Shown here piece after piece: positions 28,036 through 33,290 of a DNA stretch of 64,000 nucleotides. Positions within the stretch are counted from its first letter, which is position 1. Every line of letters begins with the position of its first letter. The translations under genes and the position numbers were made by a program. Below the pieces are notes generated by a model that was given only the letters and a program-made list of their open reading frames with translations, ran no database searches and was not told where the DNA came from. The stretch is from Bacteroidota bacterium (GTDB lineage: Bacteria > Bacteroidota > Bacteroidia > Chitinophagales > Chitinophagaceae). The stretch is from NCBI GenBank assembly GCA_030706605.1, contig JAUZOE010000011.1, positions 1 to 64,000 on the forward strand. The letters run 5' to 3'.

Positions 28036-28461
28036 TTATTTAATAGCTATTTCTTTTGGTTGCACTTTTACTTCTTCTTTTTTGGGAAGTGATAAGATTA
28101 AGAGCCCGTTCACATATTCCGCATCAATACTGTCTATATTGATTTTTTCGTCAAGTGTGAAGGATCTTTTAAAAGATTGTGCAATAAATTCTCTTTTAAT
28201 AAATTGTTTGGTTTCTTCTTTTTGTTCTTCATTTTTTTCAAAAGAAACTGTAAGAATGTTTTTGTCAACAGTAATTTTAAAATCCTCCTTTTTTCTTCCG
28301 GGAACATTAAACTCCAATTGATAATTATCATTGGTTTCCCAAATATTTACTGCCGGAAAATAGGTATTATTAGTTCTGGAAGCTGGCAAGTCGTTTAACA
28401 AATTGTCCAGGAAATAGTCGAGTGATTTTAAAGTGGGTTGATTAAATTTTAGTGTTGTCAT
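28036..28461 (-). CDS. Hsp20/alpha-crystallin small heat-shock protein
   Basis: A 141-residue cytoplasmic holdase chaperone. The alpha-crystallin domain covers about residues 38-135: AVNIWETNDNYQLEFNVPG, KEDFKITVDKNILTV, then FKRSFTLDEKIN and the family A-x-x-x-N-G-L-L-x-L-x-L-P-K pattern (EYVNGLLILSLPKK). I chose the ATG at 28461; an upstream in-frame start at 28569 would add 36 unrelated residues. A C-terminal EIAIK tail may supply the I-x-I/V oligomerisation motif. Transcribed alone, convergent with the decarboxylase gene. Confidence 0.92.
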   Translation of the reverse strand: MTTLKFNQPTLKSLDYFLDNLLNDLPASRTNNTYFPAVNIWETNDNYQLEFNVPGRKKEDFKITVDKNILTVSFEKNEEQKEETKQFIKREFIAQSFKRSFTLDEKINIDSIDAEYVNGLLILSLPKKEEVKVQPKEIAIK

Positions 28462-28643
28462 GATTTTTATATTTTTTAAGTTTTTAAATGATTTTGTCAT
28501 TTCATTCTCAAAATAAATACCAATCCATAAAATTCGATTAAGAGAAGGATATATAAGGCATAATGGCATTTATTACTTTCTGAGACTGACAATGTTTCCG
28601 AAGCGTATTAATAATACAATGTTTTTTTAACCTTTAAGTGTCG

Positions 28644-28651
28644 TAAATTTG
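28644..28651 (+). promoter_or_regulatory. TAnnTTTG -7 box for the bacilliredoxin gene
   Basis: TAAATTTG matches the consensus exactly and ends 18 bp before the ATG at 28670. Confidence 0.5.
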
Positions 28652-28669
28652 CATCCTAAAATTTAAACT

Positions 28670-29083
28670 ATGTATCCAGAACAAATAGTAATTCCAATGA
28701 AGGAAGAATTAATCCAAAATGGGTTTTCTGATTTGGTAACTGATGAACAAGTTGATAAGGCGATAGCCCAGGATGGTACTACATTGGTAGTGATCAATTC
28801 TGTCTGTGGCTGTTCTGCAGGAACTGCACGGCCGGGCGTTTTGCTGGCACTTGAGTCAAGCGAAAAAAGACCCACTCATTTGGCCACAGGTTTTGCCGGA
28901 TTTGATTATGAGGCAGTGAATAAAATTCGCGAACACTTGTTGCCATACCCTCCCTCTTCACCATCTATTGCATTATTTAAAGATGGTAAATTGGTTCATT
29001 TTCTTGAAAGGCACAATATAGAAGGAGCATCAGCACAAATGATCTCAAGTAATCTTGTTGCTGCTTTTGAAGAGTATTGCTAA
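28670..29083 (+). CDS. BrxA/BrxB-type bacilliredoxin
   Basis: A 137-residue thioredoxin-fold protein of the YphP/YqiW family. The active site is C46-G47-C48 in NSVCGCSAG, the CxC type typical of the family, and the ends (MYPEQIVIPMKEEL and FEEYC) also match. In Firmicutes these proteins remove bacillithiol from mixed disulfides; the thiol used by this organism is not known from the window. It ends at a strong terminator, so it is monocistronic. Confidence 0.93.
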   Translation: MYPEQIVIPMKEELIQNGFSDLVTDEQVDKAIAQDGTTLVVINSVCGCSAGTARPGVLLALESSEKRPTHLATGFAGFDYEAVNKIREHLLPYPPSSPSIALFKDGKLVHFLERHNIEGASAQMISSNLVAAFEEYC

Positions 29084-29098
29084 GCAGAATTTATACTT

Positions 29099-29125
29099 AA
29101 ACCCTGCAAAATAAATGCAGGGTTT
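29099..29125 (+). terminator. hairpin terminator after the bacilliredoxin gene
   Basis: AAACCCTGCA (29099-29108) and TGCAGGGTTT (29116-29125) form a perfect 10-bp stem with an AAATAAA loop, followed by GATTTACTTTT. Confidence 0.75.
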
Positions 29126-29192
29126 GATTTACTTTTAACGCTATTCTATGGTGATAAGAAGAAAATTAATTAGCCTTAACTAAACGGTTACT

Positions 29193-30524
29193 ATGTATCC
29201 CAATTTATATTACGCACTTAATGACTGGTTTGGTTGGAAAATTAATGCATTCAAGATTTTTTACACTTTTGGAATCTTTGTAGCCCTGGGATTTATTATT
29301 TCGGCTTATTTCTTAACCCTGGAATTGAAGCGTAAAGAAAAGCAAGGTCTTCTAATTCCCCGTGAAGAAACTATCATTACAGGTAAGGCTGCTTCCTTTA
29401 TTGATTTATTCATTAACGGGTTAGTCGGTTTTATTTTTGGGTATAAACTTATTGGAGCTTTTATCGAGAGCCGTCACCAGGGAGTAGATTTGCAGGAATA
29501 TATTTTTTCTTCATCAGGTAGTTGGGTGGGGGGAGTAATAGTAGCTGCAGTCCTTATTTATTTAAAATACCGTGAAAAGGATAAGCAGAAACTTGCTGTT
29601 CCAGAAAAAAGAACGATCAGGATATGGCCTCATGACAGGGTTGGGGATATAGTAATCTTCGCTTTGGTATTTGGAATTATAGGTGCCAAGCTTTTTGATA
29701 ATTTTGAAAATTGGGACAGGTTCATCCAAGACCCGATTGGTAATTTACTTTCACCCAGCGGTCTCACTTTTTATGGAGGACTTATCTGTGCCACAATTGC
29801 TATTTTAATTTATGCAAGAAAAAAAGGTATCGGGCTTCTTCATTTGATTGATGCAGCAGCTCCCGCACTTATGATTGCTTATGCAATTGGAAGAATAGGA
29901 TGTATGGTGGCAGGTGATGGTGATTGGGGAATTTTTAACAGCGCTTACATAAGTGATGTTCCCGGGCACTCGGTTCCGGCAACCCCTGAACAGTTTCAAC
30001 AGAAACTAAAAGAAAATTCTACTTATTTTTTAAATGGCTCTGTGGTTGATCCTTCGGGTGCTACTACTATGGTTACCGACCGCCACGAAGAATCCCTGGA
30101 TAAAGTGCCACATAAAAGTTTCAGAGGCCCCGGTTTTTTGCCTACATGGTTGTTTGCTTATACCTATCCGCATAATGTGAATGAAGATGGTATCCTATTG
30201 CCTGACTGTGAAGGGAAATATTGCCGGGCATTGCCACAGCCGGTATTCCCTACTCCATTATATGAAATCATTTCCTGTGGATTCTTATTCCTGATACTTT
30301 GGGCGATAAGGAAGAAAATTGTTGTTCCTGGGGTTATGTTTTGTATATATCTTATTATGAATGGTATTGAAAGATTTTTGATAGAAACTATTCGTGTGAA
30401 TACTACTTATTCTATTTTTGGAATACATCCCACTCAAGCAGAACTCATTTCTGCGGCATTGGTCATCGCAGGTATTGCAGGAATTTTTGTCTTTAATAAA
30501 AGATATAGGAATACTGAATTCTGA
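29193..30524 (+). CDS. lgt: prolipoprotein diacylglyceryl transferase, long form
   Basis: A 443-residue integral inner-membrane enzyme that transfers diacylglycerol from phosphatidylglycerol to the lipobox cysteine. Family landmarks are G233-R-I-G in YAIGRIGCMVAGDGDWG (the signature, with the essential Arg 234) and the C-terminal P-L-Y-E, followed by RFLIETIRVN. It is much longer than E. coli Lgt (about 290): an insertion of some 80 residues follows the signature (about 246-335), containing polar sequence and two Cys (PDCEGKYCRALP). Long Lgt forms are known in Bacteroidota. The consumers of its product are visible in the window, such as the NlpC/P60 lipoprotein. Confidence 0.9.
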   Translation: MYPNLYYALNDWFGWKINAFKIFYTFGIFVALGFIISAYFLTLELKRKEKQGLLIPREETIITGKAASFIDLFINGLVGFIFGYKLIGAFIESRHQGVDLQEYIFSSSGSWVGGVIVAAVLIYLKYREKDKQKLAVPEKRTIRIWPHDRVGDIVIFALVFGIIGAKLFDNFENWDRFIQDPIGNLLSPSGLTFYGGLICATIAILIYARKKGIGLLHLIDAAAPALMIAYAIGRIGCMVAGDGDWGIFNSAYISDVPGHSVPATPEQFQQKLKENSTYFLNGSVVDPSGATTMVTDRHEESLDKVPHKSFRGPGFLPTWLFAYTYPHNVNEDGILLPDCEGKYCRALPQPVFPTPLYEIISCGFLFLILWAIRKKIVVPGVMFCIYLIMNGIERFLIETIRVNTTYSIFGIHPTQAELISAALVIAGIAGIFVFNKRYRNTEF

Positions 30525-30762
30525 TGAAATCAGTAATTTATCTCTGATAATAATCGTCATGATTTGTAAAAAAATCACCCTATTCCACAATCTGCTATTT
30601 AAGTTCGAGAAGCCTGTTACATATCTCAATACTTTCTAAATTTTTAGTGTTTTATTTTAATCAACTTGTGTATCCTGTCAATTGAACTTTCCATCTTCTT
30701 TATCCGTTTACATAAAATCCTTACCAGTTGTATAAAATTATTTACCATTCATGTATGACTAT

Positions 30763-30783
30763 GTACTATGTAAAACAAAGTAC
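30763..30783. promoter_or_regulatory. operator-like palindrome at the barrel-gene promoter
   Basis: GTACTATGT (30763-30771) and ACAAAGTAC (30775-30783) form an inverted repeat with 8 of 9 pairs around AAA. It ends one base before the -7 box and fills the space between -33 and -7, where a bound repressor would block RNA polymerase. The half-site ACTATGT also occurs just upstream (30758-30764), and ACATAGTA follows at 30810-30817. The regulator is not in the window. Confidence 0.5.
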
Positions 30784-30784
30784 T

Positions 30785-30792
30785 TAGTTTTG
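30785..30792 (+). promoter_or_regulatory. TAnnTTTG -7 box of the barrel gene
   Basis: TAGTTTTG matches the consensus exactly and lies 35 bp before the ATG at 30828, immediately downstream of the palindrome. Confidence 0.6.
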
Positions 30793-30827
30793 TATTGTAA
30801 TATTGAAAACATAGTAATATAATAAAA

Positions 30828-33290
30828 ATGAAAAAGTCAACATTCTTTACAATTTTAATGCTAATTAGCACCTCCTTTTGCTTTGCACAAACCCCTTATG
30901 GATCTATAAAAGGATCTGTTATGGATGGAGGCGACCAGGAAATAATAGATGCCGCCACAATCTCTCTTTTTAATGCCAATGATTCTGTGCTGGTGAAAAT
31001 AAATCTTGCCGATAAAGGCGGGAATTTTTTATTTGATCATATTCCTTACGGTAAATATTATTTGTTAGCTACTTCTACTGGACACCTGCAAACCTATAGC
31101 CCGGTTTTTAACGTTAAAGATACATTTCCCGTTTCGGCGGGTATTATTCATTTAAAAGGTAATGTAAAAGCGCTCAAAGAAATAAAAATAGAGTTTAAGA
31201 AGCCTTTTATTGAAAGGAAAATTGACCGTACGGTTATTAATGTTGATGCCTCTATTACCAATGCAGGGACTACGGCATTGGAAGTACTTGAAAAATCTCC
31301 AGGTGTAACGGTTGATAAGGATGGAAATGTGAGTCTGAAGGGGAAAGCGGGAGTGATGATCATGATGGATGGCAGGCCATCCTATCTTAGCGGACAGGAC
31401 TTGGCGAATCTTTTAAAGAATATGCCATCATCATCAATAGATCAAATTGAAATTATGACCAATCCTTCTGCAAAATATGATGCTTCAGGAAATTCAGGAG
31501 TTATCAACATAAAGATGAAAAAAAATAAATTGAGAGGCCTGAATGGAAGTATTAGTTCGACAATACTACAATCAATCTATACAAAGACCAATAACAGTTT
31601 CAATCTTAATTATCGGGCAGGGAAATTTAATCTTTTCAGTAATTACAGTTATTCGCTTTGGCAAAACAAGCAGGAAATGTACATCCTGAGAAAATTTAGG
31701 AATGCCAACACGAAAGAAATAGAAACAATATTTGATCAAAATTCTTCTGTGAAGAACAATGGTCAATATCATAATCTGAAGTTGGGGATGGATTTTTATG
31801 CCAATAAGAAAACTACTGTAGGAATGGTATTTTCAGGCTATTTAAATCCTTCAGATAATAATAGTAACAATCAGACCAATTTGAATAATTCAAAGAATCA
31901 GATTGATTCAATAGTGCTTGCCAAAAATACTGAAAGAACAAAATCGAATAATTTTGCTACCAATTTTAATCTCCGCCATGTTTTTGATTCTGCCGGAAAA
32001 GAATTTACCGTGGATTTGGATTACCTGGATTACTATCAGAAATCTGATCAGCTTCTAATCAACAATTTCTTAAATCCTGATTTTTCTGTAAGAGCCGATC
32101 CTTCAGAACTCAAAGGGTACCTGCCTTCAAAGGTGAAAATTTATTCTGCAAAAACTGATTTCACATTCCCTCTTAAAAATACAGCTAAAATAGAAACAGG
32201 GTTAAAAAGCAGTTACGTTACTACAGACAATGATGCTCTTTATCAAAATAATACCCCTTCGGGATATGTTACAGACGAAGGAAAAACCAATCATTTTATT
32301 TATGAAGAAAACATTAATGCTGCGTATGTAAATTATAGTCAACAAATAAAAAAATGGGGATTCCAGGCGGGTTTGCGTGCTGAAAATACTAACGCAAAAG
32401 GTAACCAGGAAGGAAATTCATCACATCCCGATTCTGTTTTTACAAAAGGATACACTAACCTTTTTCCAACAGCTTACTTAAGTTTTGCTGCTGATGACAA
32501 AAATACCTTTTCTTTAAATTATGGACGAAGAATTGACCGGCCCGCTTACCAGGATTTAAATCCGTTTTATTATTTTCTTGATGAATATACCTATCGGGTA
32601 GGCAACACCGGGCTTCAACCCCAGTTTTCAGACAATTTTGAATTATCCCATACGTATAATGGATTTTTAACTACTACACTTAACTATAGTGAAATTCATC
32701 ACGTTTTTACCCAGGTACTTAAGCAAATAACCAGTGAAAGAAAAACCTTTCAGACTCCGGAAAATATTGCTTCGAAATCGAATTTTGGAATTGCTATAAG
32801 TGCCAATTTCCCTGTGACTAAATTCTGGAGTACCAATTTATATACTAATGTAAGTCATGATACTTACAAAGGACAACTTAGCGGTGGGATGCTTAATGTA
32901 AAAAATACCGGTTTCTTTTCAAATATGAATAATCAATTCAAATTCTCAAAAGGGTGGAGTGCTGAATTAAGCGGGTTTTACCAATCAAAAGGAATAAGAG
33001 GCCAGATAGTAATGAACCCAATGTGGAGAATGGATGCAGGTGTACAAAAACAAATATTAAAAAAGAAAGGAAGTTTAAAATTAAGTGTACGTGATATTTT
33101 CAAAACTCAAAATTTTTCAGGAAGTGTCAATTACCAGGATATTGATCTGCATATCAGGAATACGCAAGACAGTAGAATTGCATCACTTACCTTTTCCTAT
33201 AGGTTTGGAAAGCCAATGCAAAACCAACGGCATAGAAGAACAGGTGGCGCTTCTGACGAACAAAGCAGGGTTAAAACAACAGACAATTAA
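30828..33290 (+). CDS. TonB-dependent-receptor-like outer-membrane barrel (PF14905 type)
   Basis: An 820-residue outer-membrane protein. A signal peptide (MKKSTFFTILMLISTSFCFAQ) is followed by a carboxypeptidase-regulatory-like beta-sandwich (about 25-105), a plug-like domain (about 130-225, with NAGTTALEVLEKSPGV and IEIMTNPSAKYDASG) and a long barrel with aromatic strand ends. This is the architecture of Bacteroidota TonB-dependent receptor paralogues that lack a SusD partner. No TonB box is obvious, and no SusD or siderophore gene is near. The ligand is unknown. Its promoter holds a palindromic operator, so it is probably inducible. The C-terminal tail after the last strand is polar and basic. 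Confidence 0.88.
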   Translation: MKKSTFFTILMLISTSFCFAQTPYGSIKGSVMDGGDQEIIDAATISLFNANDSVLVKINLADKGGNFLFDHIPYGKYYLLATSTGHLQTYSPVFNVKDTFPVSAGIIHLKGNVKALKEIKIEFKKPFIERKIDRTVINVDASITNAGTTALEVLEKSPGVTVDKDGNVSLKGKAGVMIMMDGRPSYLSGQDLANLLKNMPSSSIDQIEIMTNPSAKYDASGNSGVINIKMKKNKLRGLNGSISSTILQSIYTKTNNSFNLNYRAGKFNLFSNYSYSLWQNKQEMYILRKFRNANTKEIETIFDQNSSVKNNGQYHNLKLGMDFYANKKTTVGMVFSGYLNPSDNNSNNQTNLNNSKNQIDSIVLAKNTERTKSNNFATNFNLRHVFDSAGKEFTVDLDYLDYYQKSDQLLINNFLNPDFSVRADPSELKGYLPSKVKIYSAKTDFTFPLKNTAKIETGLKSSYVTTDNDALYQNNTPSGYVTDEGKTNHFIYEENINAAYVNYSQQIKKWGFQAGLRAENTNAKGNQEGNSSHPDSVFTKGYTNLFPTAYLSFAADDKNTFSLNYGRRIDRPAYQDLNPFYYFLDEYTYRVGNTGLQPQFSDNFELSHTYNGFLTTTLNYSEIHHVFTQVLKQITSERKTFQTPENIASKSNFGIAISANFPVTKFWSTNLYTNVSHDTYKGQLSGGMLNVKNTGFFSNMNNQFKFSKGWSAELSGFYQSKGIRGQIVMNPMWRMDAGVQKQILKKKGSLKLSVRDIFKTQNFSGSVNYQDIDLHIRNTQDSRIASLTFSYRFGKPMQNQRHRRTGGASDEQSRVKTTDN

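Follow-up and report, generated by a model that had tools for sequence, protein, structure and literature searches.

The promoter of an outer-membrane beta-barrel gene in the window (the whole stretch of 64,000 nucleotides analysed here) carries a palindrome just ahead of its -7 box, which raises the question of what protein would bind there and what else that protein would control. We consider it very likely that this palindrome serves as operator for the single PadR encoded in the host genome, which would repress both the barrel gene and its own padR-membrane-protein operon and be released by an envelope signal; an additional LytTR layer of control is less certain.

The operator and the barrel promoter

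The barrel protein matches PF14905 (E 3e-118) and PF07715 (E 5e-6) in Pfam, with PF13620 under its cut-off. Its closest named relative, at 72% identity, is from Ginsengibacter hankyongi; many Chitinophagaceae are among the remaining matches, which suggests that the host belongs to this family. The gene order at 28036-33290 of the window is Hsp20-like, thioredoxin-like, Lgt and barrel gene; the same order is seen by eye in four of 14 further loci (L287, L288, L292 and L295), the others differing upstream.

The palindrome is composed of two arms around TAAAA, can also be written GTACTATGT-AAA-ACAAAGTAC, and has eight of its nine arm pairs complementary. A single base (30784) lies between its end and the -7 box, and 44 nt lie between its end and the barrel ATG. 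This agrees with the original prediction, which had put a palindrome directly upstream of a perfect TAGTTTTG box, and the flanking half-site ACTATGT that it reported at 30758 is present as well; the downstream half-site is also there, with its start at 30809 and not at 30810 as first given. The features of the promoter are collected in Table 1.

Table 1. Features of the barrel gene and its promoter in the window.
Feature	Positions	Strand	Assignment or basis
Distal repeat half ACCAGTTGTA	30723-30732	+	Putative LytTR-type response-regulator site
Proximal repeat half ACCATTCATG	30744-30753	+	Putative LytTR-type site
Upstream partial half-site ACTATGT	30758-30764	+	Its ATG (30761-30763) lies at the expected position of a Bacteroidota -33 element
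Two-fold operator GTACTATG-TAAAA-CAAAGTAC	30763-30783	.	Putative PadR-binding site
-7 box TAGTTTTG (TAnnTTTG type)	30785-30792	+	Direct sequence; phase to operator conserved
Conserved TGTAAT	30796-30801	+	Probable transcription start region (start inferred)
Downstream half-site ACATAGTA in 5' leader	30809-30816	-	RGTAY conserved in relatives
Outer-membrane beta-barrel protein, 820 aa (OMP_b-brl_3, Plug, weak CarboxypepD_reg)	30828-33290	+	ORF and Pfam

TAnnTTTG is the -7 promoter consensus of Bacteroidota, and N-TAnnTTTG follows the palindrome exactly in 63 of the 75 named-relative barrel loci that have a site. By itself TAGTTTTG occurs at chance level in the window (four found vs 4.5 expected); its conserved feature is the phase relative to the palindrome and not an enrichment of its own. 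Across the aligned barrel promoters (n = 77), T is found at -2 in 77/77 and G at -1 in 73/77, and the ATG of the upstream half-site would, by its position, be the -33 element. In the conserved TGTAAT, alignment columns 33-35 hold G (77/77), T (76/77) and A (77/77). Farther downstream, RGTAY is present 22-50 nt past the palindrome in 67 of the 77 promoters (shuffles: mean 5, maximum 11), and the window's leader copy, AGTAA, does not match RGTAY. The operator thus adjoins the core promoter elements, and its position fits repression, since it falls within what is expected to be the -33/-7 spacer.

The two-fold pattern, allowing up to three mismatches, matches twice in the window against 0.08 expected; the second match (21069, three mismatches) is inside an ORF and scores 8.4 bits by the padR matrix. 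A scan for Sigma-70 -35/-10 promoters, a type that Bacteroidota would not be expected to use, showed no enrichment (five found vs 3.7 expected).

Conservation of the site and candidate owners

The host genome comprises 4.27 Mb in 71 contigs and encodes one PF03551 protein above the cut-off (56.7 bits vs 27), PadR, for which the closest solved relative is the PadR-family structure PDB 5h20 (residues 1-108 aligned, E 9e-37), presumably from Bacteroides fragilis. Classical PadR operators have an ATGT/ACAT core. When the genome is searched with GTACTATGYNNNRCATAGTAC at up to three mismatches, two sites are found against one for the reversed control: the window operator and C12:207630-207650, which lies 72 nt ahead of the padR start codon. 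The looser GTACTWTGYNNNRCAWAGTAC at up to two mismatches gives four sites against none for the control. With a matrix built solely from padR promoters, the window site scores 30.2 bits and the padR site, which belonged to the training set, 28.4. A search for the 19-mer at up to two mismatches returned 11 places in the host genome: the window site, the padR site, two at an HTH_34 operon, six in ORFs and one between ORFs (L005). The next-best score among these is 18.5 bits, at the HTH_34 operon, and the remaining places reach at most 11.6 bits. The intergenic one (C6:54763-54781), which precedes a peptidase-like gene, is a weak palindrome with two mismatches and 5.8 bits. A score of 30.2 bits was never reached in 6.4 Mb of simulated DNA (100 sequences of 64 kb).

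The original prediction had implied a trans-acting regulator, possibly of PadR type, and had proposed looking for a PadR gene whose promoter shares the motif. Both the motif and such a gene are found, with the same inverted repeat in the two promoters, and the PadR reading is supported because the only other strong operator match in the genome sits in the promoter of its sole PF03551 gene. The gene after padR encodes a 737-aa membrane protein with PspC, LiaI-LiaF-TM, Toastrack and borderline HAAS matches, the last scoring 25.8 bits on the full protein and 27.1 on its N-terminal part against a cut-off of 27. Judged by domain content, padR and the PspC-Toastrack gene are predicted to form a HAAS-PadR envelope-stress dyad, with the HAAS match borderline.

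The association of the operator with padR extends through the family. Of 195 family genomes, 173 have a padR relative (E <= 1e-8), and in the best 30 loci from these 173 the operator is present in 30/30, matching at 13 or more of its 16 fixed positions. Its start lies 64 to 418 nt upstream of the start codon; an extra gene accounts for the longer distance at L104. TAnnTTTG follows 12-13 nt past the operator in 28/30 of these promoters. Exact GTACTWTGYNNNRCAWAGTAC occurs in 96/195 family genomes (111 sites, summed from the table) with no control matches, so that the motif is not at the random frequency that the original prediction had named as its refutation, and in the host genome alone the excess is small (two vs one). 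Of thirty exact-site loci, 17 stand ahead of padR, 10 ahead of a barrel gene of this family, one ahead of an HTH_34 gene and two ahead of a small protein. Across the phylum, exact sites were found in 15 of 296 genomes and control matches in none; of the nine sites outside the family, six precede padR or a padR operon, one an HTH_34 gene and two other genes, and none of the nine precedes a barrel gene. Autoregulation therefore looks the older and wider link. In another family of the same class (L140, L141, L143 and L144), a padR operon with the same operator starts with a DUF4870-type gene, assigned by Pfam for L141 and by the likeness of the products for the other three.

Barrel promoters show the same site. 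Among the best 80 of 532 named relatives, 75 of the 79 testable loci score at least 10 bits by the padR matrix, against 0/79 in an intragenic control scan of the same loci; those below are L212 (8.5) and, lower, L173, L203 and L224. In the best 30 barrel loci from family genomes, a set that overlaps the named one in species, the operator is present in 27 of 28 testable loci, L033 and L034 being left out for having less than 100 nt upstream; L020 is without it and L032 has just 12 of the 16 fixed positions. In 12 picked genomes (the host's own genus and genomes whose barrel site was mostly already known), a search at up to two mismatches found the padR site in 12/12 and the barrel site in 11/12, with 57 sites in total vs 17 for the control; the congener G134 has padR and its site and no barrel site at this threshold. 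Three genomes speak against the pairing by keeping a site with no matching PadR in the assembly: G008 (99% complete; L014, L152) retains the barrel operator at L014, and its PF03551 protein is of another PadR subfamily with no such operator nearby; G048 (83% complete) likewise retains the barrel operator, and an exact site is present in G112 (69% complete), both of them lacking any PadR match.

A similar palindrome, YACTTTG-N5-CAAAGTR, is observed around an HTH_34 regulator gene on contig C66 (L002/L073) and its relatives (L074-L102), with a CreD gene downstream of the regulator gene in the host genome. This is probably a second, separate, autoregulated system. The half-site spacing is identical to that of the window operator, the right arm CAAAGTAC matches, two such sites stand at the host's HTH_34 operon, and the window site reaches 23.3 bits with an HTH_34 matrix made from 57 sites in 30 loci, so this small winged-helix protein might be taken as the owner. 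However, leave-one-out classification separates the padR and HTH_34 motifs at 30/30 and 57/57 sites, the padR matrix is preferred at 27/27 barrel sites, and the window site scores higher with it (30.2 bits). The HTH_34 operator has T as the fifth base of both arms, and the left arm in the window has A there. The barrel site is intact in the congener G045, where HTH_34 is matched with an E-value of only 1.5e-9 at best. Ownership by the HTH_34-CreD regulator, against which the matrix comparison decides, is accordingly judged very unlikely; cross-binding at the window operator is conceivable, given its 23.3 bits.

A different regulator could also bind the palindrome and control padR as well, an arrangement that would give identical sequence data and that would accommodate both the retention of the site in G008 and its occurrence upstream of other genes (L139, L142, L127 and L128). 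Yet a site at all 30 padR loci and at padR operons in other families is what autoregulation predicts, and no alternative candidate emerged among the loci analysed here; we regard this explanation as unlikely. Far less credible still is a palindrome that reflects promoter shape or chance and has no ligand. The chance-level occurrence of the -7 box and the small excess over control in the host genome would suit it, but the palindrome is far above chance, is conserved at about 50% protein identity and is absent from the intragenic control. PadR is thus the preferred owner, as the original prediction had supposed; that account was well supported but incomplete, having missed a LytTR-like repeat upstream, and the HTH_34 look-alike lay outside its view.

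The upstream direct repeat

Conservation of the barrel promoters ends about 45 nt upstream of the palindrome (77 aligned: 76 named and the window), and this region holds a direct repeat, RCCRNTYATC-N10-RCCRTTYR. Its proximal half starts 19-21 nt before the 21-mer in 76/76 relatives and 19 nt before it in the window, and the start-to-start period is 20 in 70/76 relatives and 21 in the window. At a fixed offset the repeat reaches at least 12 bits in 73/76 named barrel promoters, an in-sample count since the matrix was trained on the same 76, in 0/30 padR promoters and in 2/400 random positions. Both halves of the window repeat together score 17.9 bits, compared with a median of 24.3 in the relatives, and another place in the window scores 19.5. 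The layout is that of LytTR sites: two repeats of 9-11 nt with a spacer of 11-13 nt, upstream of the core promoter.

Exact matches to the repeat number 23 across 79 family genomes, vs two for the control; the host genome and G045 have none. In 14 of the 23 a palindrome lies 12-14 nt downstream, 12 of these being at barrel genes; one (L264, genome G055) stands 100 nt ahead of the padR palindrome, one (L263) precedes a small protein without a good palindrome, and the remaining seven have neither.

In 16 of the 76 named loci, which are those with at least 1,400 nt upstream, the gene immediately before the barrel gene, in the same orientation, is that of a LytTR-type regulator, called by likeness to the host LytTR proteins; at L224 it is split over two frames. 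None of the 30 padR loci has such a gene next to padR. Among 14 further barrel loci, three (L284, L285 and L290) have an adjoining LytTR-type regulator, in each case with an ORF of 384-391 aa ahead of it. For L285, the one locus run through Pfam, a His_kinase match was found in one protein and Response_reg and LytTR in the regulator. The row of probable LytS-type kinase, LytTR regulator and barrel gene at these three loci is a candidate cognate two-component system; the L284 and L285 regulators are the same as those of L229 and L201. The 18 adjacent regulators compared are 67-100% identical to one another and 27-39% identical to six of the seven host LytTR proteins, the short L268 being left out. 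A scan of the host's seven LytTR loci for the direct repeat gave at best 17.1 bits (L266), which falls within the chance matches of the window (up to 19.5), so no host LytTR regulator is named.

The repeat resembles LytTR response-regulator sites and, as a second conserved element, suggests two-component activation of the barrel gene. For the window, activation is less certain than repression, because its repeat (17.9 bits, period 21) is below the median of the relatives.

Palindromes are also found ahead of other genes (L127, L128, L139, L142, L245, L258, L280, L281 and L282). The genes at L127, L128, L245, L258, L263 and L282, in several genera, encode small proteins (144-147 aa) that look secreted, and the promoters of all of these except L263, which has the repeat alone, combine repeat, palindrome and a -7-like box; the box ends in TTTA, not TTTG, in L128, L245 and L282, and the repeat is weak in L282. 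Repeat scores at loci fetched by the palindrome alone are 24.4 (L127), 21.0 (L128) and 11.1 (L282). Pfam gave no match for the small proteins of L127 and L128, and a repeat-matrix scan found no direct repeat at the palindromes of L139, L142, L280 and L281.

Proposed mechanism and known systems

We computed a shared, phased and conserved site together with the identities of the genes it precedes, and from these we infer binding, repression and release by envelope stress. A PadR dimer occupying the -33/-7 spacer of the barrel promoter, with its centre near -26 relative to the probable start, would block RNA polymerase by excluding it from the promoter. The same PadR is predicted to repress its own operon of padR and the HAAS-PspC-LiaI/LiaF-TM-Toastrack membrane protein gene. 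Under the published dyad model, PadR would let go once the membrane protein senses an envelope signal, and expression of the sensor operon and of the barrel gene would rise together. As a second and less certain layer, a LytTR-type response regulator may activate the barrel promoter from the upstream direct repeat.

On balance, by a narrow margin, we favour a rigid composite module of the Chitinophagaceae, in which two envelope-sensing systems would meet on one outer-membrane barrel gene: LytS/LytTR activation from a direct repeat centred near -61, and HAAS-PadR-PspC repression from the palindrome in the -33/-7 spacer. The module may act as a portable regulatory cassette, since it is also found upstream of the small proteins that look secreted and are unrelated to the barrel. 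Taken singly, the parts are all of known kinds; their joining on a single promoter and the defined target are new to us, and a search of the open-licence literature returned no paper on this operator or target. If true, the convergence of a LytTR two-component system and the dyad on one promoter would tie the make-up of the outer membrane to the sensing of stress at the inner membrane, and such a link would span a large bacterial family.

As described in the excerpted text of PMC11237479, the HAAS-PadR dyad is connected with the phage-shock (PSP/Lia) response to envelope stress and, on the basis of gene neighbourhoods, was put forward as an alternative there to two-component systems, with the HAAS protein passing an envelope signal to PadR. 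The host system is similar in having a standalone PadR wHTH gene beside a gene for a protein with PspC, LiaI-LiaF-TM, Toastrack and borderline HAAS. It differs from the neighbourhoods described there in having a predicted operator and an unlinked outer-membrane barrel as a second target. The dyad thereby gains a predicted operator, together with a conserved and clearly defined candidate target beyond its own operon, and its model becomes directly testable.

The E. coli LytTR regulators YehT and YpdB bind two repeats of 9-11 nt separated by a spacer of 11-13 nt, and the YehT oligonucleotide holds ACCGCTTA and ACCACTCA, similar to the RCCRNTYA of the barrel promoters (PMC4847170, in the excerpted text). 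Unlike the YehT and YpdB sites, the window repeat is a putative site, known from sequence, with no regulator tied to it. The Listeria PadR proteins LftR, LadR, LstR and LltR, as presented in the excerpt of PMC6624303, resemble the proposed system in their small regulons and autoregulation; they are from a Gram-positive organism, however, and their targets are efflux pumps and an FtsW/RodA homologue instead of an outer-membrane barrel.
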